DNA of 38,285 bases from a virus, in IMG/VR virus record IMGVR_UViG_3300027295_000063, positions 1 through 38,285 of that record; one strand, written 5' to 3'. Position 1 is the first letter of the stretch, and every line of letters starts with the position of its first letter. Shown here in pieces: positions 704-23,718 of this stretch. The notes beneath the pieces are model-generated. The model searched no databases, was not told where the DNA came from, and saw only the letters and a list, made by a program, of their open reading frames with translations. The translations under genes were made by a program, and so were the position numbers.

Positions 704-1980
704 TGGCCCAACCCATCACATGGCAGACCATCAACGCACCCAGCTTCGGTGAAGCCAACCGCCTTATGGGCTTGGCCCAGCAGTCGATTCTGGGTGCTTT
801 TGATAATGGCAAGACTGCGTTGGCAGATGCACAGGCCTTTGACAAAGAGCTGTGGAAGCGTCAGGACCAGCAAGCAACCCAAGATGTTCTGGGCAAAATC
901 TATCAGGCTCAGACCGTTGATCAGATGAATGCCTTGAACCAGTCAGGAGTACTGGATCAAGCAACTGCTGCCAATGGTGCTGTGATTGATCGTGCTGCTG
1001 TCAACGCTATCCGAGACGGCCGACCTGAATTGCTTCAGACCCGTGCAAAGCAAGCAGGTGAGTTTACCGACTGGACCACGACCCGTGAGCAACGTCCAAT
1101 CGTCAACGGGATCATGACGGACATCTACAGCGGAAAGACAGATCAAGCGCAAGCAGCGCTTGCTGCCAATCCCAACCTGATGAATGCACCGGAGATCCAA
1201 AAGGCCCTGACTGACTACAAGCGAAAGCTTGTGACCCAAGGTTATGAAGACACCCGATTTACGTGGGACGACCAGGCTCAAAAGTGGAAAGCCGCTGACG
1301 CTGCACAGAAAGAGGTCATGCGTCCGTTTGAACCACTGAAAGCACAAAGTGAGCTGGATACAGCCGCACAACAACGTGAAGCGTCAAAGGCTCAAGCAGA
1401 TCTGGCAAGAGCTCAAGCAAATAAGATTGATGCAGACGCCAAAGCAGCTGCCAATGCCAACACACCTGGAAGCCTGATCGATTCCCGCTACAAAGAGCTG
1501 GTTGCCAACGGGCCATGGGACAAAGGCACGCTCGATACTGCAGAAGGCAAGAACGCTTTTCTGGACGGGCTCAAAAAAATGGGCCTGCCCTCTGCTGCAG
1601 TCGATGACGTTGTTGCTCAGGTATACAAGTACTACGGCAAAGGTGCTGTAGTTGGCTTTGATGAAAAAGGCCAGCCGATCCGTGCACCTCTGGGTGTATC
1701 GACTGCGTTGCAAGCAGTGGGTGAGGCTGGTAGCAACACAATGGTTGACAGTCTCTTTGGCTGGAGTCGTCGGGGCGATCAGACTGCCAATGCGTTGGAC
1801 AAGATGTTTGGTGTCTACTCGACTGGCGAAAAGAACCCTGGATGGCAAGCCACGAAGGACAACGAACTGATCCAGAAGATGCAGGCCACTCTTGCCTTGC
1901 GCAATCAGCGTGAAAAAGTGCTGGCTACTCCTCCTGAGCAAGTCAATTACAACGGCAAGAACCCAAAAAAGCAGAAGTGA
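703..1980 (+). CDS. helical internal virion protein, candidate
   Basis: 425 residues from ATG 703. A GTG at 688 in the same frame would add five residues, but ATG 703 overlaps the upstream stop (TAATG) and has GGGGAG at 690-695, so I prefer it. The protein is mostly helical. A heptad-like, Ala/Gln/Lys-rich coiled-coil segment runs from about residue 205 to 250 (AAQQREASKAQADLARAQAN). There are no cysteines, signal peptide or membrane segments. The C-terminus is basic (NGKNPKKQK). It lies between the small virion protein and the nuclease, directly upstream of the vRNAP, where N4 keeps its virion-internal proteins. Likely a structural or ejected protein; the family is not firmly recognised. Confidence 0.5.
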   Translation: MAQPITWQTINAPSFGEANRLMGLAQQSILGAFDNGKTALADAQAFDKELWKRQDQQATQDVLGKIYQAQTVDQMNALNQSGVLDQATAANGAVIDRAAVNAIRDGRPELLQTRAKQAGEFTDWTTTREQRPIVNGIMTDIYSGKTDQAQAALAANPNLMNAPEIQKALTDYKRKLVTQGYEDTRFTWDDQAQKWKAADAAQKEVMRPFEPLKAQSELDTAAQQREASKAQADLARAQANKIDADAKAAANANTPGSLIDSRYKELVANGPWDKGTLDTAEGKNAFLDGLKKMGLPSAAVDDVVAQVYKYYGKGAVVGFDEKGQPIRAPLGVSTALQAVGEAGSNTMVDSLFGWSRRGDQTANALDKMFGVYSTGEKNPGWQATKDNELIQKMQATLALRNQREKVLATPPEQVNYNGKNPKKQK

Positions 1981-2696
1981 CGGCACAACCACCGGCCCCA
2001 GTTGAGTCTGGGGCGGTGCCGTCAACTCAGGTGAACGGTGCTCCTGCGCCCATCAAGCCAATTGCACAGACACCAGAAGGCACCTTTGTTACTTCGAAGG
2101 GTGCTCCTGTCAAAGCCAATGCCACGTTGGCAATCGATGGTTCAAGCGGTGCTCCAGTCGGTGTGACTCGGAACCTTCAAGTTCCGAAGGAACTGAGCAA
2201 CGGCAAGCCAACCACCTTGGTTCAAGCCGATCCGAAGAACCTGAAGAGTGGTGATGCGTTCAAAGCCACGATGACTTGGGTCAAAGACGGAGACACGCTG
2301 GATCTGTCGAATGGTGTGGTTTGCCGAGTCAATGGCATCGATGCTCCAGAGACAGCCAAGCCCAATAAAGGTCAGCCTGCTCAGGCGTACTCCGCTGAAG
2401 CAACAAAGACACTTGAGCAAATGGTTCGAAACAAGGAACTGACAATTCGCATTGTTGAACCCCCAAGCGGCAAGAACTACGATCGTGCCTCTTGCATCAT
2501 TGAAGTCGAAGGCAAAGACGTTAACGTCGCCATGCTTCAACAGGGAGCTGCTTGGTTCTGGGGTTCGTTTGTCAAAGACTCGTTTCAGTACCAGAAAATG
2601 CAGGCTGCAGAATCGAAAGCGAAAAAGAACAAGGTTGGTTTGTGGAAAGATCCAAATCCGGTCTTTCCAAACACTTTTCAACGACAATACCGGTAA
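1977..2696 (+). CDS. staphylococcal nuclease-like (SNase/thermonuclease) endonuclease
   Basis: 239 residues with GTG start overlapping the previous stop (GTGA). Residues 1-90 are a Pro/Ala-rich, probably disordered extension. The SNase fold occupies about 95-230. Visible catalytic and Ca2+-binding residues: DGDT at 104-107 (D106 equals S. aureus nuclease D21), R117, D122 and E125 in CRVNGIDAPE (equal to R35, D40, E43), and R170 in YDR (equal to R87). The later VNVAMLQQGAAW and GLW elements also fit. All active-site residues are present, so a Ca2+-dependent, low-specificity DNA/RNA endonuclease is likely. There is no signal peptide. It is the last gene before an intrinsic terminator and sits in the ejection-protein cluster, so it may be packaged. 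That role is inference. Confidence 0.85.
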   Translation: MTAQPPAPVESGAVPSTQVNGAPAPIKPIAQTPEGTFVTSKGAPVKANATLAIDGSSGAPVGVTRNLQVPKELSNGKPTTLVQADPKNLKSGDAFKATMTWVKDGDTLDLSNGVVCRVNGIDAPETAKPNKGQPAQAYSAEATKTLEQMVRNKELTIRIVEPPSGKNYDRASCIIEVEGKDVNVAMLQQGAAWFWGSFVKDSFQYQKMQAAESKAKKNKVGLWKDPNPVFPNTFQRQYR

Positions 2697-2710
2697 CGGT
2701 ACACATCAAG

Positions 2711-2740
2711 AAAGCCGGGGTAACTCCCGGCTTTTTCTTT
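2711..2740 (+). terminator. intrinsic terminator between nuclease and vRNAP genes
   Basis: Perfect 9-bp stem AAAGCCGGG (2711-2719) and CCCGGCTTT (2726-2734) with a 6-base loop, running into CTTTTTCTTT. It starts 15 bases after the nuclease stop, so it should end the virion-protein transcript and separate it from the vRNAP. A TAGAAT at 2740-2745 could be a -10 element for the next gene, but no -35 is visible. Confidence 0.85.
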
Positions 2741-2774
2741 AGAATAGTCGCAATCCCCCAGACAGAAAGTCAAT

Positions 2775-5700
2775 ATGGCTGAATTCGACCTCAATAGCTA
2801 TTTCTCCAAGCGCCAACAACTGTTTGGGCAAGACAAGGTAGATGCTTTGCAGAAGGCATCTGCAGAGAAAGTTCAAGCTCTCCAAGAAAGCCGAGCCCGA
2901 GATCAGGCTTACCTAAACAGCCCTCAAGCACAGATTGATCGAGCTGTTGCGGAAGGCCGTACCTGGGGCGAGTTTGGTCAAGACGTTGGTTTGTCTGCCA
3001 TTCAAGGCGTTGATGCCTTGGCCAAGTTGCCGGCAATGGTCTACGACAAAGCCACGGAAGGAAACTTCTATGGCACCGAGACTCAGAAGATCAGTGCGAT
3101 GTCCGATGAGCGTGAAAAGCTCAAGTCGGCATTTGCACAGGCCAACAACAAGCAAAAAGCTGATGCGGCCAAAGCTGCTGGTGAAGCAGCCAAAGAGTAC
3201 TTTGGTGACGGTGCCCTTGGAACTGGTGCACAGGTTGCTGCCGAGTTCGGTAGTGCTTTCTGGGAAGCTGCCAAGGATCCAGGCAGCATTCCTGAGTTCT
3301 TGGCTCAACAAGCTGCTCAGCTGGGCGTCATGGGCAAGGTTGGCCGAGCATCGGAGCTCGCAGCTAAAGCTGCTGTCAAAGCAGCTCCAGTCCTTGCGGC
3401 TACAAAGGCTGGCCAAGCCGCAGTGAACCGTGTCGGTACGGCCGGTGCAGTAGGCACTGGTGCTGTGCTTCAGGGCACAGACGTTGGTTCGGACACCATG
3501 ACTCGCCTCATGGAGCTTCCACAGGCAGTCTGGGATCAAAACCCTCAGTACAAAGTCCGAGCCTCTGAAATCGGTGCGGATGCTGCCAAGCAGGAGATTG
3601 CATCTCGTTTGGCTTCGGAAGCTACGGTGCAAGGTGCTGCGACTTCGTTGCTGTCCGCTGCCTTGCCTGGCGGTTCGTCTGTTGAGAAGGCCCTGGTCGG
3701 CAAGTCTCTGGGAGGCTTCAAAGCTGTTCCCAAAGCCTTTGTCGGAGAGTCGGGTCAGGAAGGTATCGAAGAGGGTACTGGCAAGTTCTTTGGCAATGCC
3801 GGGGTCAAGCAGATCGACCCAACTCAGTCACTGTCTGAGGATGTGGGTGCTGCAGCTGGCCAAGGCGCTTACATGGGTGGCTTGCTAGGTGCTGGTATCA
3901 GCGGTGTGCAGACAGCCGGAAACGCTGCTGCCATTGCTGCCGCTGAACGTGCGGCCAAGGTTCAGGAGGAAGTGGCCAAGAAGCAGGATCTGAGCGCTGC
4001 AATTGCCTCAGGTGATGTCTCGGCTTACCTGGATCCCAAGAGCCCTTCCTTTGCCCCTGAGAAGGCCGTGCAAGGACTGTTTGGCAACAGCCAAAAGGAA
4101 GACACGACACCGGAAGCCAAACAGACCAACTTCGTCAAAGCCGAATCGATCGTTGCTGACCTAAAGAGCGAACGAGAAAAGCTTCGGCTTGAGCTTGATT
4201 GGACCAATCCAGACAAGCTTCAAGCGCGTCTTGATGCTGGCAGGGACGGCTTCAGTCCTGAGCTTATTGCAGCGACAGAAGAAGCTATTGCAACGCTTCG
4301 TGCTACTCCTGCTGATCCGAATGAGGTTGCAGCGCTTGAAGCCAAAGCAAAAAGCATGGATCGAAAGATCCAGCTGTCCGAAACCATTCTCAAAGACTTC
4401 AACAGGGAAGGCCAAAACCAGCAAGTTGATGTTGAGGCTGAAGTAGCCAAGCTGAAGGACGCTGATCCTGTGGTGTCACAGGGTGCGGCCGACAACATCA
4501 TCAACCTGTCCATGAAGTCCCCAGAGCTCGTGGATCGAAAGCTGGCTGCATCACTGGTCAGAGACACCACGAACAACCTGACGGACTCTCAGAGGGATTA
4601 CCTGCGTGCGTTCTCCGAGGCTCGAGTTGCTGAAAACACCCTGAAGACCATGGGTGACGTTTCCAAAGAGATCTTCTTTGGATCGGCCAAAGACAAGCAA
4701 GGAATCAAGTACACCGGTCTGGCCGAGTACCGAGCCAATGTAGCTGTGACGCTGGCTGCTGGAAACCAGAAGTCTGCTGACCGTGAACTGGGTTTGCTGA
4801 CCAATTTTGAAACAAGCCATCAAGCCAAAGCAAAAGCTGCTTCTGAGGCCTATGCAGCATTCCTGAAAGATGGAATCGAACGTCGTGTCGTCAGAAACAA
4901 AGACGGCAGTTGGAAAGTTGAACAGGGTTTGTTTGAAAGCCCTGCTGCTCGTGTTGAAAACGGTGGCATGGATATTAAGGAGAATTCTCCAAAGATCGTC
5001 GCTGAAACTAAAACAGAAGCAGATGCAATTTCCAAGACTGCTGCCGAATTGAAGGCTGCTTATGCAGTAAAGTTTGGTTCAGGTAATACCGGTGGAGCCA
5101 GTAATGTCCAGAACGTACCGCAAGCACTCGAAGGAATTCAAAGCGCCGAAACGCAGCTTCGATCCGAAGCCTCGACGCAAGATGGAGCCGCTGAAGGAAC
5201 TGCAGCTACCGGAGGAGGAGCCGCTGCCGACGTTCAAGCCGATGCAACAGCTGGAACTGATGCTGTAGCTCCTGCAGCTGACGTTGCTCAGGAGGCTCCG
5301 TCCTCTGCTGCGAGCACTGACAACACTGCGACAGCTCCTTCAGTTGAAGGTCAACTGCAGTCTGGTGAACAGGCTACAACGACCCCTTCTGCAACCGTTC
5401 CAGATCCTGCTGTTCAGGCCGAGCCTGCTCAAAAAGCGGAACAAGAGGTCGCTGCAAAGGAGTCTGGAAAGCTCTTCGCCAACCATCAAGCATCCCCGGA
5501 GGGGACTCCTCTCAGCCAGCGCCTGAACGCGATTGCAGACTTCTTCACCCAGAGTGCTGGACGTGAAGATGTGGGATCACAGCGTCCATTGGTTGCAGTC
5601 AAGAACCTGCTGAGCAAGCTAATCTCGAAAGAGGTCAGCCCTGCAGATTTTCTCAAGAGCACCGATCCTCTGACTGCTCGTCAAGACAGTGTTCTGTCTT

Positions 5701-8700
5701 TGTTCCAGAAAGCTGCTCAACGGTGGGATCCCATCATTCGTACTGGTTTGAAACGCCAGGCCAATCCTGCTTTCAACTACAAGCATTTGATGACGTACTT
5801 CCAGTTTGAGAACTCGGAAGATGGAAAGTTGGATGTCGATGAGAATTTGAAGACTGCCATGTCTGCAGCCGTCTTTCAATTTATTGCTGACAACGCAAAC
5901 GGCAAGGGCTACTCGACACCGGAGCAGATCAACAAGTTTTTGGGAAACCCTGAAGGCTCTGAGATTGACCCGAAAGTTTGGGGATTGATTGGCCAAGGCA
6001 TTCCTCAAGCTTCAATGATTGAGGAATTGGGAAACAGCATCTATGACATGCTTGGTTTTAGGCCAAGTCTACAGGCACCCAAGGATTTCGAGCCCCGATT
6101 AAAATCAGTGCTGGGTACGCAAGCGCTTCGTCTGATGCTTAGCACTCCTGGTTTGCTCAAACGCAAGACAGTCAATGCAGAAGACCTGTCGTTCAGTGAA
6201 AAGACAACCACCAAGAGCGAGAACACCCAGTTGTTTTTCTACACCTTTGTGCGTGACGAAAAAACAAAAGAGCTGAATGCCTTTGCAAAGCGTGTAGTGG
6301 ATACGAACAAAGGAACTGGGACGCTCCTGAACAAGCTGTTTGGTGTCGAAAGCTCGATCACTTTCCCTTCGCTGACTCCTGGTGCTTACGATCAGAAGAA
6401 AGCCGCCAACAGTCAGATGGGTGTGCCGGTTGAGCTGTATGACGCATTGAAACATTCCAGCGAGCTTCCCTACGAAGTGCATCAAGGGATGTGGAACCTC
6501 TACAGCAAGCTGGGCTACGAATGGTTCAGTAAAGTCATTGGTTTGCCGGAAGGCGATGTTGATACTGTGCACATCTCACAGCGTCCAGCTCATGAAGCCA
6601 AGACAGACAACACGTTTAGAGTCATCGACAACTTCATTACGTTTGTTGAAGATGTGCTGAGTCCTTCAGAGAATGGCGTAGATACACTGTTCTACTTTGT
6701 GCCTGCAGCATGGAAAAACCAACGCTCTGGTCTGACATCTAATGGGGTCAACCCCAACGCGCATAAGCAGCATCGCTACTTGGTGACTCAGACAGCTTGG
6801 AAGAACAAGGTTGATCTGACCAACCCCGATGCAGTGAACAAGCTGTATTTCCATCTAGGTGAAGCACTTGGTTTGAAAGGCACCGACCAGCAAATCATCG
6901 AGCTCTTGAACGGCGTCGATGGTCAGGGAGGTTTGCGTCAAGAGCCTGCATTCCAAGCAGCACTAGCTGCAATGGAAAAAGCCCGTCAAGGCGAAGAGCT
7001 GACTGATGCGGACAAGGCCGCAATAGTTGACGGCCAAGACATGCAAGGCTTGAACGCCATGCTGGCCATGCTCGAGGTCACTATTGCTGAGCGAGATGGC
7101 TTGGATTCAGTTGAGGTTCAACTACCAGCAGGTGTGGATGGTGTCAGTAACGGAGTGATCAAAGGCCACTTGATTCTTGGAGCAGCCAACTCGTCGGACG
7201 AGATGCTTAAGGTAATGAATCAAGGGGGCATCTACGAGGTGGGTAGTGCTTATTCTGACTTTGCCCAATGGCATGACCAGCCTGGCAACCTCGATGTGTA
7301 CGAGCGAGCCACGGCCGAAATGAACGATCGTATGGCCAACATGGTCGAGTACATGCCTGAAGTCGTGAATGCGTTGTGGGCAGTGACCCGTCCTTTAATG
7401 GATGGCGACAAAGTTACTTCAGACGGCCGTAAGTTTGCCAAGGGCGTTGTGCCTCCAATCATCTTTGGATCGTCGTTTGAGAATGCCGTCATGCGACTGC
7501 AAGAGAACTTTGCCGAGAGCGTTCTCAATGGCTTCACGAAATATGCCAATAAACCCGCAGAGCTAGATGCGTATGTCAAGGCGCTCAACACTCTGATTGC
7601 TGAAGGCGATCTTAGTGCTCCTTTGATTCCAGAAGGTAAGGACGGTGAGTACCACTTGAAGCGCAACTTGCTGCCGGCTCAGAACTCTGCCATTGCCTCG
7701 GTCTTTGACCAGACCTTGGGTATGTCGATGCAGGATGCGGTTGAAACTACCTATGGCCCATTGCGTCGTCAGCAAACTGCGTTGATCGATACAGCCAACC
7801 TGACGTTCAATTTGTACAACGCTGTGCTGGATGGTGAGCGTGAAGCTGCCTTGCAAAATGAAGACGTAGAAAAAAACAAAGTCGGAGAGCCAATTCACGA
7901 CATCACTAAAGAAGCTGATGGTCAGATCAAGAAAAAGCTGAAAGGCATCTTGCCTGTCATTCACAGCTTGATGTCAAAGCGTGATGGCCGAATCGGTACT
8001 GGCATGCTGATGTCACGATCCAGACTGGTTGAGCGAGACAGTCCTTTGTACAAGAACGAAGTGCAATTTGGCATTCCGGTGCCGGGAGTCGTCAGTACGA
8101 TTACATGGAAACCTGTTTCCAGCATCAACAGTACTTCTCGGGTTACTGGAGACGTTGTTCCTGGTGCTGCCATGGGAACGATGGTTGTCCACTCGACTGA
8201 CAGCGCTGATTCTCACAATGTTCAGATGAAGCACAGCACGTTGAACAACCACGATGAATTGGTGACTGGCGTTAATGACATTGGTTCAGTGGCTCAGGAC
8301 TTGAACAAGGCGTTTTTCCAGACTTCACTGGAATACTCCCCTCTTGAAGAGGTGTATCACTCGTTGCGTCGTACCGTTGAAGGCATGGCTAGACTAACCA
8401 AATCCGAAGGCGGTTTGTCGATCCAAGCCCAAGACAACCTGGTGGACATGCTTGCAAAGAAAGCCTGGGCAATGCGATCAGGAAACGATGTGCCGAGTAT
8501 TGGCAGCGTTCTGGTCATGCTGCTCAAAGACGCTAAGGTCATTGCGTTTCAGGCTGACAACATTCGTCTGGAAACCTTGAGCAAGATTGCCACGGTGAAT
8601 CAGTTTGCTTACGAGGGTCAAGGCTATGTTGTTACTGATGCTGACCGAGCAAAAGCGTTGAAGATGAAAGCTGAGCTGACACCTGAAGTACCCGCTTCTG

Positions 8701-11700
8701 TGGTGGCTCTTGCAACTGAACTCACTGATTCATTGAAGGCGGCTGAGCAACGTCGGATCAAACGCCTGTCGGATGCAAAGAAAGCCAAAAAGGCTCAAGT
8801 TCAACAAGTTCTTGCTGAGGCTGAATTTGACTTGTCTGCAGTAGAAGAACAAGCCCCTGCCTTTAGTCCGTTTGGCTTGTTTGGAAAACCAAGAGTCGAG
8901 AGCGACAAGGACTTGGTGAAATTCTTCAAGTCCAATCCTGCAGCTACAGCGCAGCAAGTCATCGATCTTCTTAGTGCACAAGGTCGTCTTAGTCCAGTAA
9001 ATCAAAAACTGCTCATGCTGGTGAGCAAAGTTGTAAGTCCTGATTTGGCAATTAATTTGATTACTAAGGAGACTGATAAAAATGGAGTTCTGGAAGAACC
9101 AACTCAACCGTCTCGTGCTTGGTTTGTATCGAAGGGGGACCAGCAAGCAATCTATGTGCTGAGCACAGAGTTTGTGAATTCTGGTTTGACGGCCGAGTCC
9201 TTGCTGCACGAACTGATCCACGCTGCGGTAGCTCAAGTTATTCAGAACCCTACTGGTGATGCAGCTGCTCTGGTTGCTGAGCTGGAAGCTTTGAGAGTCA
9301 AAGCCCAGGAGTTTGCTAAGCAAAACGGCTTGACTCAGTACACAGCAGCATTGGCCGATGTACAAGAGTTTGTGGCTTGGGGCATGAGCAATCTTGGTTT
9401 GCAGCGTGATGTGCTGACCAAGATTACGATGGCATCGAAGACTGGCAGCAACCGGTTGGTTACCGGCATGCAGAAATTTATTTCTGCACTGACGGGTCTT
9501 CTGTTTGAGAAGCCCGATGCAAACCTCGACAACGGCCTGTCGGTGCTAGTGTCGAACGTCTCCGGTCTGTTCTACCAGGCATCTCAAAGCAAGCCAAAAA
9601 CTGGCGACCTGAGTCTGTCCATGGCAGCAATGAATGCCGTGAATTCATACACGACGTTGGAAATCCACAACGCATTGGATAGCGGCTCCGTAAGCCCCCT
9701 GTTTCAGTCTCAGCTGGCCAATCTCCTCACCGGCATCGTTGACGCGCTCCACGGCCCGTTTGGTGCGTTTGCGCAGGCATTGCGTGAGACCGAAGCCAAG
9801 ACGCCGGTCGATGCTTGGGCCAAGGCCAAGGAACTGGGTGCTGCTCCCTTTGGTTCGAGCGTGCTCAGCCACATGGCAGCAAGCGAGCAGGAAGCCTTTG
9901 CCATCGAGCAGGTTGAGGCTACGGTCAAAGCAGCCTTGGATGGTAAGGGCGCACAGGCCACAACTCAGTACCGCGAGCTCTACAACCTATACACAGAAAT
10001 AGAAAACAAGTTCAGCAAGGACGGTTCGGACTTCTTCAAGGGTGACTGGGCCATGGCCACACCTTCGGAGAAAGCTCATGCCAAGAGCCAGTATGACTTT
10101 GTGTTCAATCTGAAGAGTGACAAGAGCGGTCGTTCGGACTACTTGGCTCGTTTTGCTGCTTTAGGTTTGGCCCATCAAGGGTTCAACCAGATGCTTCAGG
10201 TGGCAACGGAAGGCAACGTCAAAAAGGTTCGTGGACAAGAATCGTTTGAGCAACGCCTGCGTCGCTGGTTCTCCAACGTGTTGGGAATGTTCCGTGAGCG
10301 TGTGACCAAGACTTACGCCGGTCAGTTTGCAGACAACAAGCTGCAGAGTCTGGTTGGGCAGCTGGTGGACATCGAAGCTAAGAAGCGCTCGTTGCTGCAA
10401 GCCAAGAAAGGTTTGATCAACACCGACATGGTGGAAGACGGTGCTCGGGCAGTGACTGAAGGCATCCGGACCAAGATCGCTCAAGCGGCCGACTCGGAGT
10501 TTCTGCGTAAGCAGAAGAACACGGCAGTGCAGGTGGTTCGCAGTGCAGTAAGCACGGTCACTAACGATCGTACCGAGAAGTACATCGAGGGCATGCAGAA
10601 GTTCTACGAGCGCAACGTCCAGTCTCAGGGCAGCGTGTTTGTCAGTCTTCTGAAGGAACTTACTGGCCACAAGGAAAAGCTGCAAGCGGCGTTTCGTGCC
10701 GTGAAAAAGTTCGAAGGTGATCGTCAGGATCAGATTGCTGGCTGGGCCAAGGATGCTCGCAAGGCATTCAGCAAGAAGCTTTCAAAGGACAGCAGCGCCA
10801 GCATCACTTCAGTAGTGATGCGGACTGGCTTGCATTACCTGACCGACACAATGTCGTTGGCTGAAATTGAGCGCCTGGTCGACAACCCGGTTGCTCAGAA
10901 CCGGGCCATTGCTGAACTGGAAGCCAAGCTGGGCCACATGAAAGCCGAGTACGTTACTCAGATCAAAGGACTGGGCTACTACAAGGCAACGGAGCTGGTG
11001 ACGGTTGAAGTGCTGATGATGAACTCGCACTTGATCTCCAAGCTGGCTGGTACGGTTTACGAGAAGCAGATCACTGACGCGCAAGCCAAGGCAGCAGACC
11101 CGATCATCAAGCAGCTGGTGTCGCTTTATGCACTGAAATACACCTCACGCACTGAGCAAGGTTTGGCCAAGCAGGTGTTCCGTGACGAGAATGCTCGTGG
11201 CGGGTCTGTCGGCAACGGCATCGACTTTGTGATGAGAGCGCAGAAGGCACTGGAAGCAGAAGCCTTCGAGCGTCAGTTCAGGAACAACCCTGCACTGATG
11301 ATCCATGGCTTCACGCCTGAGATCTTGAATCCTCACACTGAGTTTGTGGTGGCAACTGAGGCGGAAGGACAGGCTTTGATCGACTTTGGCTACAAGCAAG
11401 GAGCCAAGGTATCCAAGGATGGTGCTGATCCGGACCAAAGCCAGAAGTACATCTACGTGCTCAAAGGCGCTGGTTTGGCCCCTCATGTCTCAGGTGCACT
11501 GCAGTTCCAGTCGGACACTGCCAAGGGCACCAAGGCACATAGTGGCTATCTGAACGTCAACACCCAAGACGGCCTAGAGAACGCACAGACACAAGCCAGG
11601 TTTGATCAGAAGCTTGGTTCTAAGATCAATACAGACCCCAACTGGGATCCTTCTCAGGAAAAGAAGAACTACACAGCGCCTCTCTACAACGAGAACGGCA

Positions 11701-13181
11701 AGGTGGTGAACTGGCGTTACATGATGAACAAGCAGACAAAGGATGATCTGCTGCAACGAAACAATAGCTTTGATCGAGTGCTGGGTGTGTTGGGCGGTAC
11801 GGTGTTCAGCAAGCCCAAGATCAAGGAGCAGAACCGTGCTGTGCTGGAAGCCTTGAAGGACATTTACAAGGACGACTACGCACTCAATGCCGAGTCGTAT
11901 GTCGAGGTGGGTCCGAAGAGCAACGATCCCGAGCTCCGAAGCTTCTGGGAGCGTTTGCCTGACCAGACCAAGGAAGATGTTCGTGCAGTCTGGGGTGGTG
12001 ACAGCATGAAGGTCACGGCCGACAGCCTGGATGTGGTGTTTGGTTACCGGAAGCTTTCACTGGCAGATCCGATCCGCCAAAGCCAAAAGAATAAGGCCAA
12101 GTTGGAAGCTGGCGGTGCACTGTCTGAGGCTGACAAGCAAGGGTTGATTGCTCAGAACTTTGTGCTGTCAGTCGAGTGGGCCTTGAGCACCTATGCTCGA
12201 ATCAAGCTGGGCAAGTCTCAGGATGAAGCCGAGCGCTATGCCAAGCGAGCTGCAGCTTATTTGACTCGTGGTGAGCGTGCATGGCAGGAGATCGTGCGTG
12301 AGATCAAGACGATCTACGTGATCAAGGGTGTGACCTCGATGATCAACAACAACAAGAGCAACTTGACTCAGTTGTTGGCTTCAGGGGTGACGCTGAAAGC
12401 GATCCGTGAGCACATGCCTGATGCTTTGAAGAGTGCCATGGCCTACCAAGCTGACAGCGATGAGCTGCGTGAGCTGGAGAACCTGCTTGAGACCGGCTAC
12501 ACCCAAGGCAACGAGGCAGAGATTGAACGCAGGATTGTTCGCTTGCGAAATGAGATTGCAATCAACCCAGCACGAGAGTTGATTGAAGCTGGCTTGATGC
12601 CTTCTATTGTGGAAGACGTTGGTGAAGCGGACGATCCGTTTTCGTACAAGACGGAGTTTGCACAGAAGACAGAACGCTTTACAGACAAGCTGAACCCGAA
12701 GGTCAAAGAGGCAGCGAAGTTTGTCTACATGACCCGAGACGGCAAGCTGTATAAGGCGTTGCACCAGGCCACACAGGTGAGTGACTTCGTGGCTCGATAC
12801 GTGATGTACCAACACCTGATCAGCCGGGAGCAGAACCCGTTAAGCAAGGCAGCAGCAATTCAAGAAGCTGCTGATGCGTTCGTGAATTACGACATAGCCA
12901 TGCACCGGAACATTCAGTTCTTGGATGACATGGGGTTCATGATGTTCACGAAGTACTTCTTGCGGATGCAAAAGGTGCTGTTAAAGATAGGTCGTGAGAA
13001 TCCTGCAAGAGTGTTGGCTTTGGCAGCAGCAGACAACTATCTGGACTTAGGATCCATCGTTCTGGACAGCTCAGCATTGGCCAAGATCGGCAACAACCCG
13101 TTTGGTATTGGTGCTCTTGGCTTCCCAGGTGCACTGGATGACCTGGCTACGGTGAAGGCAGCAATGGCCTTGGTGAAGTAA
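2775..13181 (+). CDS. giant virion-encapsidated RNA polymerase, N4 gp50-like
   Basis: 3,468 residues, close to N4 gp50 (about 3,500). A central domain carries the single-subunit RNAP motifs. These are a T/DxxGR-like element ending at R1317 (WKNQR); motif A D1455 (PAGVDGVSNG); motif B R1552-x3-K1556-x7-F1564-G1565 (RKFAKGVVPPIIFGSS); and motif C H1826-D1827 (NNHDEL). As I recall the N4 mini-vRNAP positions (R424, D559, R666/K670/Y678, D951), the spacings of 138, 97 and 271 residues match closely. Motif B has Phe in place of the usual Tyr. Residues 1-1000 are Ala/Gln-rich and helical, with a low-complexity Ala/Thr/Pro linker around 800-890. The C-terminal region has a zincin-like HELIH (2145-2149) with E2198 in VQEFVAW. 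No cysteine occurs in the whole protein. Role by analogy: packaged in the capsid, ejected with the DNA, transcribes early genes from hairpin promoters. It was first read as a generic 'large polyvalent protein'; the motif order argues for RNAP. Confidence 0.88.
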   Translation: MAEFDLNSYFSKRQQLFGQDKVDALQKASAEKVQALQESRARDQAYLNSPQAQIDRAVAEGRTWGEFGQDVGLSAIQGVDALAKLPAMVYDKATEGNFYGTETQKISAMSDEREKLKSAFAQANNKQKADAAKAAGEAAKEYFGDGALGTGAQVAAEFGSAFWEAAKDPGSIPEFLAQQAAQLGVMGKVGRASELAAKAAVKAAPVLAATKAGQAAVNRVGTAGAVGTGAVLQGTDVGSDTMTRLMELPQAVWDQNPQYKVRASEIGADAAKQEIASRLASEATVQGAATSLLSAALPGGSSVEKALVGKSLGGFKAVPKAFVGESGQEGIEEGTGKFFGNAGVKQIDPTQSLSEDVGAAAGQGAYMGGLLGAGISGVQTAGNAAAIAAAERAAKVQEEVAKKQDLSAAIASGDVSAYLDPKSPSFAPEKAVQGLFGNSQKEDTTPEAKQTNFVKAESIVADLKSEREKLRLELDWTNPDKLQARLDAGRDGFSPELIAATEEAIATLRATPADPNEVAALEAKAKSMDRKIQLSETILKDFNREGQNQQVDVEAEVAKLKDADPVVSQGAADNIINLSMKSPELVDRKLAASLVRDTTNNLTDSQRDYLRAFSEARVAENTLKTMGDVSKEIFFGSAKDKQGIKYTGLAEYRANVAVTLAAGNQKSADRELGLLTNFETSHQAKAKAASEAYAAFLKDGIERRVVRNKDGSWKVEQGLFESPAARVENGGMDIKENSPKIVAETKTEADAISKTAAELKAAYAVKFGSGNTGGASNVQNVPQALEGIQSAETQLRSEASTQDGAAEGTAATGGGAAADVQADATAGTDAVAPAADVAQEAPSSAASTDNTATAPSVEGQLQSGEQATTTPSATVPDPAVQAEPAQKAEQEVAAKESGKLFANHQASPEGTPLSQRLNAIADFFTQSAGREDVGSQRPLVAVKNLLSKLISKEVSPADFLKSTDPLTARQDSVLSLFQKAAQRWDPIIRTGLKRQANPAFNYKHLMTYFQFENSEDGKLDVDENLKTAMSAAVFQFIADNANGKGYSTPEQINKFLGNPEGSEIDPKVWGLIGQGIPQASMIEELGNSIYDMLGFRPSLQAPKDFEPRLKSVLGTQALRLMLSTPGLLKRKTVNAEDLSFSEKTTTKSENTQLFFYTFVRDEKTKELNAFAKRVVDTNKGTGTLLNKLFGVESSITFPSLTPGAYDQKKAANSQMGVPVELYDALKHSSELPYEVHQGMWNLYSKLGYEWFSKVIGLPEGDVDTVHISQRPAHEAKTDNTFRVIDNFITFVEDVLSPSENGVDTLFYFVPAAWKNQRSGLTSNGVNPNAHKQHRYLVTQTAWKNKVDLTNPDAVNKLYFHLGEALGLKGTDQQIIELLNGVDGQGGLRQEPAFQAALAAMEKARQGEELTDADKAAIVDGQDMQGLNAMLAMLEVTIAERDGLDSVEVQLPAGVDGVSNGVIKGHLILGAANSSDEMLKVMNQGGIYEVGSAYSDFAQWHDQPGNLDVYERATAEMNDRMANMVEYMPEVVNALWAVTRPLMDGDKVTSDGRKFAKGVVPPIIFGSSFENAVMRLQENFAESVLNGFTKYANKPAELDAYVKALNTLIAEGDLSAPLIPEGKDGEYHLKRNLLPAQNSAIASVFDQTLGMSMQDAVETTYGPLRRQQTALIDTANLTFNLYNAVLDGEREAALQNEDVEKNKVGEPIHDITKEADGQIKKKLKGILPVIHSLMSKRDGRIGTGMLMSRSRLVERDSPLYKNEVQFGIPVPGVVSTITWKPVSSINSTSRVTGDVVPGAAMGTMVVHSTDSADSHNVQMKHSTLNNHDELVTGVNDIGSVAQDLNKAFFQTSLEYSPLEEVYHSLRRTVEGMARLTKSEGGLSIQAQDNLVDMLAKKAWAMRSGNDVPSIGSVLVMLLKDAKVIAFQADNIRLETLSKIATVNQFAYEGQGYVVTDADRAKALKMKAELTPEVPASVVALATELTDSLKAAEQRRIKRLSDAKKAKKAQVQQVLAEAEFDLSAVEEQAPAFSPFGLFGKPRVESDKDLVKFFKSNPAATAQQVIDLLSAQGRLSPVNQKLLMLVSKVVSPDLAINLITKETDKNGVLEEPTQPSRAWFVSKGDQQAIYVLSTEFVNSGLTAESLLHELIHAAVAQVIQNPTGDAAALVAELEALRVKAQEFAKQNGLTQYTAALADVQEFVAWGMSNLGLQRDVLTKITMASKTGSNRLVTGMQKFISALTGLLFEKPDANLDNGLSVLVSNVSGLFYQASQSKPKTGDLSLSMAAMNAVNSYTTLEIHNALDSGSVSPLFQSQLANLLTGIVDALHGPFGAFAQALRETEAKTPVDAWAKAKELGAAPFGSSVLSHMAASEQEAFAIEQVEATVKAALDGKGAQATTQYRELYNLYTEIENKFSKDGSDFFKGDWAMATPSEKAHAKSQYDFVFNLKSDKSGRSDYLARFAALGLAHQGFNQMLQVATEGNVKKVRGQESFEQRLRRWFSNVLGMFRERVTKTYAGQFADNKLQSLVGQLVDIEAKKRSLLQAKKGLINTDMVEDGARAVTEGIRTKIAQAADSEFLRKQKNTAVQVVRSAVSTVTNDRTEKYIEGMQKFYERNVQSQGSVFVSLLKELTGHKEKLQAAFRAVKKFEGDRQDQIAGWAKDARKAFSKKLSKDSSASITSVVMRTGLHYLTDTMSLAEIERLVDNPVAQNRAIAELEAKLGHMKAEYVTQIKGLGYYKATELVTVEVLMMNSHLISKLAGTVYEKQITDAQAKAADPIIKQLVSLYALKYTSRTEQGLAKQVFRDENARGGSVGNGIDFVMRAQKALEAEAFERQFRNNPALMIHGFTPEILNPHTEFVVATEAEGQALIDFGYKQGAKVSKDGADPDQSQKYIYVLKGAGLAPHVSGALQFQSDTAKGTKAHSGYLNVNTQDGLENAQTQARFDQKLGSKINTDPNWDPSQEKKNYTAPLYNENGKVVNWRYMMNKQTKDDLLQRNNSFDRVLGVLGGTVFSKPKIKEQNRAVLEALKDIYKDDYALNAESYVEVGPKSNDPELRSFWERLPDQTKEDVRAVWGGDSMKVTADSLDVVFGYRKLSLADPIRQSQKNKAKLEAGGALSEADKQGLIAQNFVLSVEWALSTYARIKLGKSQDEAERYAKRAAAYLTRGERAWQEIVREIKTIYVIKGVTSMINNNKSNLTQLLASGVTLKAIREHMPDALKSAMAYQADSDELRELENLLETGYTQGNEAEIERRIVRLRNEIAINPARELIEAGLMPSIVEDVGEADDPFSYKTEFAQKTERFTDKLNPKVKEAAKFVYMTRDGKLYKALHQATQVSDFVARYVMYQHLISREQNPLSKAAAIQEAADAFVNYDIAMHRNIQFLDDMGFMMFTKYFLRMQKVLLKIGRENPARVLALAAADNYLDLGSIVLDSSALAKIGNNPFGIGALGFPGALDDLATVKAAMALVK

Positions 13182-13288: not shown

Positions 13289-13594
13289 TTACTTGATGAG
13301 GATTTCCTCAAGCTTTCCACCCTTCGCCAGGTGTGCTTCAACCCATTTGGGTTTACGTCCTCGACCGGACCAGAAGTTGGTGCCGGATTGATACTTCATA
13401 GCCACCTTTGCTCGACCAGTAGCAGTGACCTTGACTGGCTCACCGAAGTTCAAGTCTCGTACACGAATGCCGTAGAACTTGATCTTTTCGTTGATGTCTT
13501 CGATCGCAGCAGATCTTTCTTTTGAAAGAAGAGCGTCTCTTTCTTTCTGGAGAGTTTCGATCTGTTTTTGCAGATCATCGAGCTTGTTGGCCAT
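13289..13594 (-). CDS. H-NS family nucleoid-associated protein
   Basis: 101 residues from ATG 13594, preceded by AAAGGAA. An upstream in-frame ATG (13726) would overlap the neighbouring gene and lacks H-NS-like sequence, so I rejected it. Residues 1-40 form a charged coiled coil (LQKQIETLQKERDALLSKER), the usual oligomerisation part. Residues 66-100 are the H-NS C-terminal DNA-binding domain: MKYQSGTNFWSGRGRKPKW, then a helical tail. W75 and the SGRGRKP loop (76-82) form the AT-hook-like minor-groove reader, written in the form common in Burkholderiales H-NS. The length is slightly short of typical H-NS (about 135). It is the last gene of the middle operon. It may silence host or phage promoters, or form mixed oligomers with host H-NS; the role is inferred. 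Confidence 0.85.
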   Translation of the reverse strand: MANKLDDLQKQIETLQKERDALLSKERSAAIEDINEKIKFYGIRVRDLNFGEPVKVTATGRAKVAMKYQSGTNFWSGRGRKPKWVEAHLAKGGKLEEILIK

Positions 13595-13634
13595 CGGTAT
13601 TCCTTTCGATTTGGGCGGTTCGTGGAAGAGGTTT

Positions 13635-13865
13635 TCAAGAGCCTTCTTGGGTTCCTCTTCCTTCGCCTTTTGACGGGCGAGATGGTACTGATTCGTGCTC
13701 ACAGTATTCCTTGATACAGAGGGCAATGATCGCTATGACAGCTGCGCCCAACAGGACTGCTCCTGCTACGGCAACGAGTGCTGAAATGAGCGCACCTCCA
13801 ACCAATAGTACAGTGAGAACGAGGATTGCGGCTAGGGTATAGCCAATCCCTTTGAGTACGCCCAT
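13635..13865 (-). CDS. small two-helix membrane protein
   Basis: 76 residues. Two hydrophobic segments lie at about residues 8-30 (TLAAILVLTVLLVGGALISA) and 31-52, joined by a very short turn, followed by a polar, charged tail (CEHESVPSRPSKGEGRG). There is no cleavable signal. It starts 12 bases after the previous stop and ends 40 bases before H-NS, so it belongs to the same transcript. The ribosome binding site is poor (AGGTCGTAGG close to the ATG). The family is unknown. An inner-membrane role early or midway in infection, such as host-membrane interference or exclusion, is possible but unsupported. Confidence 0.6.
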   Translation of the reverse strand: MGVLKGIGYTLAAILVLTVLLVGGALISALVAVAGAVLLGAAVIAIIALCIKEYCEHESVPSRPSKGEGRGTQEGS

Positions 13866-20868: not shown

Positions 20869-22809
20869 TTACAGAATCTCGCAGACGCCAGCCGTACAGG
20901 CCAGCTCTTTGGTATTCACAGTGGCATCGTCTTTCTCGAACTGAGCCAGTTGGCTCCAGTCGAGAGCAGGCATGCGTGCCAGCAATGCTTCGTACTCTGC
21001 TTTGGTGCATTCGGTGTACGGAGCCTGTTGGTACGTGTGATCGCTGTGAGGCAGGAAGCTCACACCAGCCAGCTGGTCGAAGTTCTGATACACCCAATCA
21101 CCCACACCCATCCACTCGTGATCCTTGACGTAGACCGTCACGGACACGTTGTGCTCAGTCCATTCGGTCTGCAGCATCAAGTAGTGATCCAGCTGCTCAA
21201 GGGCAGTGCGATCGTTTCTGAACACTGCATGGCTTGGGCCTTGCACTGGGAAGCTGAAGATGTCTGTGCTGTCTGGCTTCATCACGCAGTCCTCGACTGG
21301 GAAGCCCTGTGCACGCATCAGCAATGCGAGTGGGTCTTTCTTGTCTGCACGGACTGTGCGGATGTAGTACTCAGAGTAGCGAGGGTGAATGCCGGATGCA
21401 GAGTCCACCAGTTGGCTGACTGTTCCGCTTGGCTTCACGGTGGTAATGGCCACCGATTGGTTGATGCCCAGCTTCTCAGCCCATTCCTTGTTGGTGGCAA
21501 TCGCGGCTTTCTTCATCTGGCGCAACCAGTCACGCGATGTCTCACTGGTGTGGCTCAGGACTGGGTGATCCATGATGCCGGTCAGTGACACACCCAGCAG
21601 ACGCTCTTCGATCTGGTTTTCTTTCCAGATGTCACGCACGTAGCGGAACTCGGTCAGCAAGGACTGGTAAGTCCCGATGATGGTGGCAACCTGAACCTTG
21701 TCGATCAGGTCTTTCAGTGTGTCTTCCTTGCGGATCACCACTTCAGACAGGTTGCAGACACCAGCGCTGCGAAGCGTGATCTCTGCACAAGGGTTGACAC
21801 CCACGATCTTGGAAGGATCACGACGGCCTGAGTCGATGGCTTTTTTAATGGCCGCTTCACGGTTGAAGATGCCACGCTCACCTGACTTGGATTCGATCAG
21901 GCTCAGCCATTCCTTCATGAAGAGCTCCATGGCTGGACGCTCTGTGTAGGCTGCTGAGTTGTTGGCCAGAGCACGCTGAGGCTCGATTGCCCACCACTGA
22001 CCGCTCTTGGCGCTACGCATGCGGTCGTCAGACAGGTTGCTCAGAGAAATCAGAGCACTGCGACGAACACCGCCTACAACCACGATGTCAGCGATCTTGC
22101 ACACCAGGTCATGGCATTCGATCGATGTCAGCTTGCGACCGGCTGCACCCTTAAAGGTCTGGACGGCGAACTTGAAGAGATCGATCAGAGGCTGGGGACC
22201 ACTGGCTCGGCCACCGAAGACCTTGAGCTTGGCTCCAGCTGGACGAACCAGGCTGGTGTCCCAGTTGGGGATGTAGCCTGCGTAGAGGTAGGTCAGCAGC
22301 TCACGGAAAGCTGAAGCCCAACCACGCTTGCTGTCCTGAACCACAATCGTGTGATCGACTGGAGTCAGGTGATCCACGGTTTGAATGTGCAGCTTGCCTT
22401 CTGAATCCATCATTGCTTGAGCACCGATGATCGGCAACTTGGCAATGAATTGACGTTCAACAGAGAATCCCATGCCAGTGCCGCACATCAGGATGTACAG
22501 GATCTCGTCAAAAGCTCGGGGGTCTTCAATTGCGACGAATGCGCAGTTGTAGCCAGCCATTGGATCACGTTCAAGTGCAGGGCCAGCTGTCATCAAGGCA
22601 CGCATGGAAGGCATGGTGCGCAGACTCAGAATGCTGTTGAAGATCTGGTCTTTGGGGTAATGAGGAAACTTCTCAGCAAAGTAGTTGACGTACCGTTTGA
22701 CGGTTTCATCCCAGTTTTCACGGCGCTGTTCAGCGTCGATCCACCGGGCATACCGACTTTTGTGCACGTATTCTTGAAGCGGGGTAGGGAGTTGGTTTGC
22801 TGGTTGCAT
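20869..22809 (-). CDS. nrdJ: class II (adenosylcobalamin-dependent) ribonucleotide reductase
   Basis: 646 residues from ATG 22809 (CCAGAAAGACCCA upstream; a longer TTG-started form is rejected). C89 in GYNCAF and C352 in VCNLSE form the redox pair. The NPCAE motif gives thiyl-radical C341 and E343. The KPSGTVSQLVDSASGIHPR segment is the phosphate-binding loop of the monomeric reductases. The last residues, ELACTAGVCEIL, carry the C-terminal shuttle pair C638 and C643. No small subunit gene is present, and the sequence resembles Lactobacillus leichmannii RTPR, so a B12-dependent, oxygen-independent enzyme is likely. It makes dNTPs for phage replication, and ThyX is just upstream. It lies between two terminator-like hairpins. 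Confidence 0.9.
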   Translation of the reverse strand: MQPANQLPTPLQEYVHKSRYARWIDAEQRRENWDETVKRYVNYFAEKFPHYPKDQIFNSILSLRTMPSMRALMTAGPALERDPMAGYNCAFVAIEDPRAFDEILYILMCGTGMGFSVERQFIAKLPIIGAQAMMDSEGKLHIQTVDHLTPVDHTIVVQDSKRGWASAFRELLTYLYAGYIPNWDTSLVRPAGAKLKVFGGRASGPQPLIDLFKFAVQTFKGAAGRKLTSIECHDLVCKIADIVVVGGVRRSALISLSNLSDDRMRSAKSGQWWAIEPQRALANNSAAYTERPAMELFMKEWLSLIESKSGERGIFNREAAIKKAIDSGRRDPSKIVGVNPCAEITLRSAGVCNLSEVVIRKEDTLKDLIDKVQVATIIGTYQSLLTEFRYVRDIWKENQIEERLLGVSLTGIMDHPVLSHTSETSRDWLRQMKKAAIATNKEWAEKLGINQSVAITTVKPSGTVSQLVDSASGIHPRYSEYYIRTVRADKKDPLALLMRAQGFPVEDCVMKPDSTDIFSFPVQGPSHAVFRNDRTALEQLDHYLMLQTEWTEHNVSVTVYVKDHEWMGVGDWVYQNFDQLAGVSFLPHSDHTYQQAPYTECTKAEYEALLARMPALDWSQLAQFEKDDATVNTKELACTAGVCEIL

Positions 22810-22833
22810 TGGGTCTTTCTGGTTCCTGGAATG

Positions 22834-22877
22834 AAAAAGAGCCAAAGTCTCCCCAGGAAAACTGGAAACCTTGGCCC
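22834..22877 (-). terminator. intrinsic terminator between thyX and RNR genes
   Basis: On the minus strand GGGCCAAGGTTTCC (22877-22864) pairs with GGAGACTTTGGCTC (22852-22839) over 14 positions with three G-U wobbles. The loop is 11 bases, and TTTTT (22838-22834) follows. It lies 37 bases after the ThyX stop and ends 24 bases before the RNR ATG. Confidence 0.75.
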
Positions 22878-22913: not shown

Positions 22914-23654
22914 TCAGTAGTTACCCTGAGTCAAAGCCGACCAAGAAACCGGGAATAGAGGTTGAATGATTTGGTTCACTTGTTCAGCCAGATCCTGGAT
23001 TTCCTTTTGGGCATGGGAATCGGATCGCTGGTTGTAGAAGTTCGCATAGGCGTACAGGGAGCCTGTCCAGACCCAGTTGACCTCTACCCCTTGGGGCAGC
23101 ATAAAACGGGCTTGCTCGGGGCATACGCCGTCGTCAATGGCCTTCTCGTAGCGGCGGATCAGGTGCTCGCAGTCTTCCCGGTACACATGGAGCCACATTT
23201 CACTGCGAGGATGCTTGCCGGCACTGCCTTGTTTCACTGATGCGGCCGACTCCCGGAAGTGATCCGGCAGGTAGAACTGGGGCTTGGTCGAGATGTACCG
23301 GCGAGACTCTTCCGACTCTACAAAACCGATCTTGTGCTTGAAGCACTGGACTCGGATGGGAATGGGAGCCTGCATCCGGAGAGTGATCTGGGGATGGCCA
23401 AACGGCACCCAGTGGCAAGGAATGCTTCTGAGGTAGGTGGCTTGGCGCTTGACCTCTTCGGTGCTCATGCCTTCGGCACCCAGCTCCTTGATCAGCTTTT
23501 CCCAGTCTCCAGAGGCCATGCCTCGAGCCAGGAACCTGACCAGGTTGTTGTTCTGGGCTTCGGTGAACTTGTCAGCCAGGGTGGCAAAGGATTGCCTGGC
23601 GTAATTGGCTACATCCCTGTCTGTCAGGTAATGATTTTCGTAAACAGCTTTCAT
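22914..23654 (-). CDS. thyX: flavin-dependent thymidylate synthase ThyX
   Basis: 246 residues from ATG 23654, preceded by AACCAACTGAAAGAA. A longer frame to 23792 would overlap the divergent fibre gene and is rejected. The ThyX motif region reads FKHKIGFVESEESRRY (105-120), a KHK version of RHR-x7-8-S-x-R-Y, with S117 and Y120. Upstream HWVPFGHPQITLRMQAPI (81-98) and downstream ARFMLPQG and QRSDSHAQKEI also match ThyX, including the R-x-x-LP and R-x3-HAQ-x-E elements. It makes dTMP from dUMP using FAD and methylene-tetrahydrofolate. It is the first gene of the minus-strand block visible here and works with the downstream ribonucleotide reductase. Confidence 0.9.
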   Translation of the reverse strand: MKAVYENHYLTDRDVANYARQSFATLADKFTEAQNNNLVRFLARGMASGDWEKLIKELGAEGMSTEEVKRQATYLRSIPCHWVPFGHPQITLRMQAPIPIRVQCFKHKIGFVESEESRRYISTKPQFYLPDHFRESAASVKQGSAGKHPRSEMWLHVYREDCEHLIRRYEKAIDDGVCPEQARFMLPQGVEVNWVWTGSLYAYANFYNQRSDSHAQKEIQDLAEQVNQIIQPLFPVSWSALTQGNY

Positions 23655-23718
23655 TGGTTCTTTCAGTTGGTTTAAGGGGAATGGAGGATAATCGATCGCA
23701 TTTATCGGAGATGTCTCT
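23655..23718. promoter_or_regulatory. divergent intergenic region between thyX and fibre gene
   Basis: These 64 bases must hold the start signals for both directions, unless the transcripts begin further in. Seen: two AACCAA copies on the thyX side, CGGAG (23706-23710) as ribosome binding site for the fibre gene, and GATAAT (23687-23692), which could be a -10 element reading right. No -35 at proper spacing is visible. A promoter here is inferred from the divergent layout. Confidence 0.35.

Follow-up and report, generated by a model that had tools for sequence, protein, structure and literature searches.

A natural phenylalanine at the ribose-sensing position of a phage virion RNA polymerase, its partner histidine, and an apparent exchange of the polymerase core

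Introduction

The textbook example of a sugar sensor is Tyr639 of T7 RNA polymerase, whose replacement by Phe (Y639F) is a standard laboratory tool. In the same enzyme H784 hydrogen-bonds the 2'-OH of the incoming nucleotide, and H784 and G542 share ribose discrimination with Y639 (PMC11617373, PMC13286181), while another account sees the chief role of H784 in reading base pairing from the minor groove (PMC4551944). The virion RNA polymerase (vRNAP) of phage N4 carries Tyr678 at the position of Y639, and two marine N4-like phages have been described in which Y678 is kept (PMC2784036). A natural 'Y678F' in N4-like viruses was given in 2010 in the legend of Supplementary Figure S2 of a paper covering LUZ7, LIT1 and PEV2 (PMC3715699); the main text cites this figure when discussing the other, heterodimeric polymerase, and the assignment to the vRNAP gene rests on the N4 mini-vRNAP numbering used in the legend. 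For N4 itself, a segment of the O helix is known to switch between a loop and the O helix upon promoter binding (PMC4496689), and an HExxH motif has been described in the C1 domain (PMC12633501).

Here, we analysed a 38,285-base IMG/VR record, hereafter the window, meaning the whole stretch of DNA at its full length. An initial annotation had singled out its vRNAP for a Phe in place of the ribose-discriminating Tyr of motif B.

Results and Discussion

An intact virion RNA polymerase gene in an N4-like setting

The polymerase is encoded by a single reading frame.

2775-13181, + strand: vRNAP gene, uninterrupted open reading frame of 3468 codons (3468 aa, 0 Cys)
9207-9221, + strand: HELIH, residues 2145-2149, the HExxH motif of the C1 domain

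Its length lies in the range of about 2800-3800 aa expected for these giant proteins. This frame matches PHROG 2206 'virion RNA polymerase' (E = 0) across residues 28-3464, and full-length N4 gp50 in the PDB is a sequence match, while a Pfam search of the vRNAP gave no match. The absence of Cys, likewise seen in the vRNAPs of LIT1 and N4, is consistent with a protein that is packaged in the virion and ejected. Neighbouring genes encode an N4-type SSB, a Sak4-like annealing protein, a primase, an exonuclease, a class II ribonucleotide reductase and ThyX, along with tail fibres, a spanin and an endolysin, and these surroundings fit a Schitoviridae-type phage. Judged from its sequence, the frame is an intact N4-type vRNAP within the large Phe-type branch described below. 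No near DNA relatives of the window were found by megablast of the phage collection, and a single-protein IMG/VR scan with the window core revealed no close copy visible to such a scan.

Several neighbours deserve mention in their own right. Directly upstream of the vRNAP gene, in the place of the ejection-protein operon, lies an SNase-like protein (1977-2696, + strand; Pfam E=9e-19), which may be an ejected nuclease; relatives stand upstream of the vRNAP in six related contigs (L056, L039, L053, L032, L088 and L070). Just downstream of the vRNAP gene and convergent to it, 13289-13726 (- strand) encodes a small protein whose C-terminal, DNA-binding domain is of the H-NS type, possibly a phage-borne silencer or anti-silencer. 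The class II (B12-type) ribonucleotide reductase (20869-22845, - strand) and the ThyX thymidylate synthase (22914-23792, - strand) adjoin each other.

F1564 occupies the position of N4 Y678 and T7 Y639

The catalytic elements were located in the central part of the protein.

5424-8753, + strand: modelled polymerase domain, residues 884-1993
6723-6725, + strand: R1317 of the T/DxxGR motif (N4 R424, T7 R425)
7137-7154, + strand: motif A, D1455-G-V-S-N-G1460 (T7 D537...G542), with invariant D, G and G columns, aligned to T7 motif A
7293-7301, + strand: D1507-x-Y1509 (N4 D610/Y612, T7 D569/Y571), kept in all vRNAPs
7428-7472, + strand: motif B (O helix), R1552-K1556-F1564-G1565-S1566, reading RKFAKGVVPPIIFGS
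7464-7466, + strand: F1564, codon TTT, position of N4 Y678 / T7 Y639
8250-8255, + strand: motif C, H1826-D1827 (N4 D951, T7 D812)

The annotated reading of motif B is exact: the codons of 7428-7472 are CGT AAG TTT GCC AAG GGC GTT GTG CCT CCA ATC ATC TTT GGA TCG, translated as R1552-KFA-K1556-GVVPPII-F1564-G1565-S1566, within the uninterrupted frame. In a MAFFT alignment with N4 gp50 and 14 other diverse Schitoviridae-type vRNAPs, F1564 falls in the column of N4 mini-vRNAP Y678, and R1317, D1455, R1552, K1556 and D1827 pair with N4 R424, D559, R666, K670 and D951. A profile-profile comparison of 36 vRNAPs with nine T7-like polymerases places F1564 on T7 Y639 over motifs A and B (P = 2.5e-4), whole-domain hhalign against T7 alone being too weak and usable only with the nine T7-like sequences. 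The AlphaFold2 model of residues 884-1993 (pLDDT 89.2, pTM 0.89) is closest to the N4 mini-vRNAP (2po4; Z 27.9, rmsd 4.2 over 946 residues), followed by T7 RNA polymerase (1s76; Z 18.7).

The alternative that another Tyr or another group fills the site, or that motif B lies elsewhere, so that the Phe is not the discriminating residue, gains something from the sequences of T7 and the vRNAPs being barely alike overall, with no significant whole-domain match. It seems highly improbable, since the motif B Arg and Lys stand at the right spacing and are invariant in 178/178 vRNAPs, the profiles match T7 over motifs A-B, and the predicted fold is that of the N4 mini-vRNAP and T7 RNA polymerase. Moreover, no Tyr occurs within 25 residues on either side of F1564, the nearest being Y1526 and Y1590. 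A neighbouring Tyr standing in for F1564 was rejected; the conserved Y1509 is also present in the Tyr-type enzymes.

Phe is shared across a large clade

The proposed alignment with N4 gp50 and count of Phe at this column was carried out on 178 distinct vRNAPs from IMG/VR and isolate phages, for which the IMG/VR scan patterns were placed in motif A and other stretches and not in the Phe column; 69 carry Phe and 109 Tyr. On a tree of 126 representatives only four changes are needed to explain the Phe, compared with a mean of 37 after shuffling. The Phe enzymes mostly fall in one deep clade, which includes Litunavirus LIT1 and Littlefix and has small Tyr pockets inside. The window vRNAP is placed inside this Phe-type clade with Litunavirus, on a long branch, and has the clade's Phe and His; its motif B ends in Phe-Gly and not in the Tyr-Gly of the Tyr-type N4 branch. 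Judging by this alignment, Tyr at the Y678 column is a mark of the N4 branch and not of the whole vRNAP family.

The view of the Phe as exceptional or singular must thus be given up: it is the standing state of a clade that includes the LIT1/PEV2-type Pseudomonas phages, and a shared, previously noted property of a large phage group. What is new to print is not the Phe. As a separate observation, the 'Photobacterium' phage TEMp-D2 (L004, PP852688.1, marked unverified) has a motif B with flanks identical to those of Pseudomonas LIT1, and its host or sample label may be mistaken.

A histidine accompanies the Phe

A column-by-column comparison of Phe-type and Tyr-type enzymes brought out one further residue, H1806, located 21 residues before the motif C Asp1827.

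8190-8204, + strand: H1806-S-T-D1809-S1810, position of T7 H784-S-Q-D-G

An hhalign comparison around motif C, between Phe-type vRNAPs and T7-like enzymes, put H1806 on T7 H784 and Asp1827 on D812 (P = 6.4e-5), an alignment that works only with the Phe-type profile, as the N4-type profile does not align to T7 there. Between the two vRNAP branches, the alignment spans the entire domain (E=8e-31). All 63 readable vRNAPs with Phe also have the His, as do 45/45 in the first 126 representatives. In an enlarged set of 95 representatives, Phe occurs with His in 49 and without it in 0, and the 46 Tyr rows carry Gly (21), Gln (15), His (8) or Ser (2) at this position. The combination of Tyr and Gly belongs to the N4 branch, and Gln, Ser or His beside Tyr are found elsewhere. 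Even inside the Phe clade, members without His occur only in the Tyr pockets, where they have Gln (L074, L079, L087, L092, L394 and L397). G1460, the counterpart of T7 G542, is invariant across the vRNAPs aligned.

In T7-like enzymes, Y639 (80/80), H784 (80/80) and G542 (82/82) are all kept, and all 80 sequences covering both of the first two positions have Tyr and His. This suggests that the His is an ancestral residue that was retained, not one gained as compensation, and that it was lost in the N4 lineage. The suggestion that a compensating change might be found elsewhere in the enzyme thus holds in so far as the His goes with Phe in 49/49 representatives, and fails in that the His seems to have been there beforehand. 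As Tyr and His coexist in 8 of the 95 rows, neither residue forces the loss of the other. As far as our searches show, the rule that Phe comes with His is undescribed and looks new.

Two labels met in this survey are recorded here. A vRNAP-like coding region with Tyr and His (L423, NZ_AUAZ01000052.1) lies in a contig of Marinobacterium litorale DSM 23545 and is possibly a provirus or a phage contaminant. Gene 1.0 of phage K1F (NC_007456.1), annotated as 'N4-like RNA polymerase', is 63% identical to T7 RNA polymerase, and its label looks wrong.

Strength of the coupling between Phe and His

Residue identities, conservation and the coupling were read directly from the alignment and from one tree. 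In the enlarged 95-row tree, Phe is found in three separated places (the main clade, L415 and L416), each time with His. A model in which loss of His and gain of Phe depend on each other is better than independence (2*dlnL = 25.5, compared with a maximum of 12.0 in 60 null simulations), although the coupling rests on few independent changes, such rate models can be driven by a single clade, and the tree was built quickly and contains long branches, including those of L415, L416 and the window. A stricter paired-lineage test, run on the first tree, could draw on only 2-4 pairs and was without power. Of the 663 columns, only 17 show no variation among the Phe rows; of these, leaving aside the Phe column, H1806 varies most in the Tyr rows. 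N1824, three residues before the motif C Asp, is also invariant in the Phe rows, and given this residue the Phe-His pattern may in part reflect inheritance within the clade.

A neutral history would go further: an ancestor that had the His acquired Phe and passed it on, and the link with His reflects common descent and not function. Most Phe sequences do sit in one clade with few independent events, N1824 shows a pattern similar to that of H1806 but weaker, and the Tyr hydroxyl could be dispensable since the vRNAP makes only few early transcripts. However, the separate Phe cases L415 and L416 stand beside relatives with Tyr and Gln, and both have His; simulations of independence with similar totals gave zero Phe-without-His tips in only 0 to 2 of 400 runs; and the column that ranks highest apart from the Phe is precisely the one already known from T7. 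We therefore regard a purely neutral history as unlikely.

A proposed division of ribose selection

In single-subunit RNA polymerases, two side chains touch the 2'-OH of the incoming nucleotide, namely the Tyr that closes the O helix (T7 Y639) and the His before motif C (T7 H784), and the Gly of motif A (T7 G542) gives the 2'-OH room. T7-like enzymes retain both readers; the N4 branch would have kept the Tyr and lost the His (mostly to Gly), and the branch of the window would have kept the His and changed Tyr to Phe. Ribose selection by the window enzyme would proceed mainly through H1806 and G1460, while the ring of F1564 would keep its stacking and translocation role with the hydroxyl gone, and the enzyme would still be expected to make RNA. 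The 2'-OH contacts in the window enzyme, and the His as carrier of selectivity, are what we infer here. On balance, we lean towards the reading that ribose is selected by way of the His in Phe-type vRNAPs and of the Tyr in N4-type ones.

Relaxed sugar discrimination offers a different account, in which Phe-type enzymes take dNTPs appreciably, like T7 Y639F, and the phages tolerate or use this (as deoxy residues in early transcripts, or in priming). T7 Y639F and Syn5 Y564F both relax selection against 2'-substituted substrates (PMC4538805), and the B12-type ribonucleotide reductase and ThyX of the window phage could raise dNTP pools. Yet the His, the other residue known from T7 to contact the 2'-OH, accompanies Phe without exception, as if the choice of ribose were still under selection, and the vRNAP acts at the start of infection, ahead of the phage enzymes of dNTP supply. 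This account is accordingly considered improbable.

A large natural family lives with the state known from the laboratory mutant, under the simple rule that Phe occurs only where His is kept. This rule would amount to nature's test of the two-residue model built from T7 mutants. As a natural set of enzymes, the Phe-type vRNAPs could also be screened for the ability to make 2'-modified RNA.

The unusual residue of motif B is a proline

The truly odd residue of motif B in the window is P1560 rather than F1564.

7452-7457, + strand: P1560-P1561 in the O helix

Counting from the motif B Lys (K1556), Pro at K+4 (P1560) occurs in the window only (1/178), the usual residue being Thr (162/178) or Met (13), together 175. 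At K+5, where Ile, Ala or Val is usual, Pro is found in 4/178, namely the window, L005, L006 and L014. These four are without the usual K+2 Pro present in 171/178, so that the O-helix Pro seems, from the alignment, to move. The two prolines had been annotated as replacing Met-Thr; this is correct when compared with T7 but does not apply within the vRNAPs, given their usual K+4 and K+5 residues. The model of the window splits the O helix into two parts, 1549-1556 and 1559-1563, and has the prolines in the first turn of the second part, whereas the control model of L032 (KTPLTAMVF) has a single unbroken 15-residue helix at the same place. It is a speculation from these models that a broken O helix might matter for the switch between loop and O helix. 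As far as our searches show, P1560 is undescribed.

An apparent exchange of the whole polymerase core

The contig L056 (IMG/VR contig 3300047292_000147) is collinear with the window, with replication genes 94-97% identical, and departs from it within the vRNAP gene.

5277-9650 (end approximate), + strand: core segment differing from L056, with DNA on both sides 86-96% identical

The DNA is 96% identical over 1390-5276, and protein identity between the two vRNAPs is 98% for the N-terminal domain (residues up to about 835), 28% for the core, 49% for C1 and 85% for C2. The core identity expected for this pair is 0.92 against an observed 0.28, a gap of ten standard deviations that is not approached by any other pair among 67 full-length vRNAPs. 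The first junction lies in an Ala-rich linker, and the reading frame continues through both ends. Ordinary divergence is an unlikely cause, as DNA identity goes from 96% to no alignment at all at a single position in the Ala-rich linker. Replacement of the whole core by recombination is the simplest reading and a likely one from these comparisons; a chimeric assembly is a conceivable alternative source of the difference. Both cores have Phe and His, and the motif B of L056 is the ordinary TKNPLTTLMFGS, unlike the PP version of the window. The core tree groups the window and L056 at 96% support, although both are long branches, whose grouping is a known artefact. Searching for additional relatives with the C2 domain gave no matches; as L056 exists, this is no proof of absence.

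Beside the vRNAP gene, 1022-1390, in the middle of a 430-aa upstream ORF (likely an ejection protein), also diverges from L056 between flanks of 85-96% DNA identity and is a candidate second exchanged segment. A study of recombination in Litunavirus located it chiefly in the tail fibre gene and recorded additional events in the core genome (PMC9786124). The apparent core exchange is, as far as our searches show, undescribed; occurring within one gene, it suggests that vRNAP domains are interchangeable modules. The wider proposal, that the residues reading the 2'-OH trade off in nature (Tyr alone or His alone) and that the core carrying the choice can be swapped as one cassette within the vRNAP gene of near-identical phages, is put forward tentatively, as somewhat short of an even chance.

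Comparison with known systems

The closest described relatives are LIT1, PEV2 and their kin (Litunavirus, Migulavirinae) and Littlefix, which share with the window the Phe at the Y678/Y639 position, the His at the H784 position and the full vRNAP architecture. Over the core the window is about 29% identical to these Phe-type vRNAPs. It differs in that its core forms a long separate branch relative to those of LIT1, PEV2 and Littlefix. Where those enzymes have T-A at K+4/K+5 and the usual Pro at K+2, the window has PP and is without the K+2 Pro.

N4 gp50 (the mini-vRNAP) is the same gene, with the same fold and catalytic residues, and carries Tyr678 and Gly926 at the positions of F1564 and H1806. 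The window enzyme is unlike T7 RNA polymerase in its natural Phe, in being a 3468-residue virion protein, and in its little sequence similarity. Compared with Autographiviridae-type enzymes, which have both Tyr639 and His784, it has the His and replaces the Tyr by Phe. At F1564 its state equals that of the T7 Y639F laboratory mutant, and like that mutant it keeps the H784-type His and the G542-type Gly.
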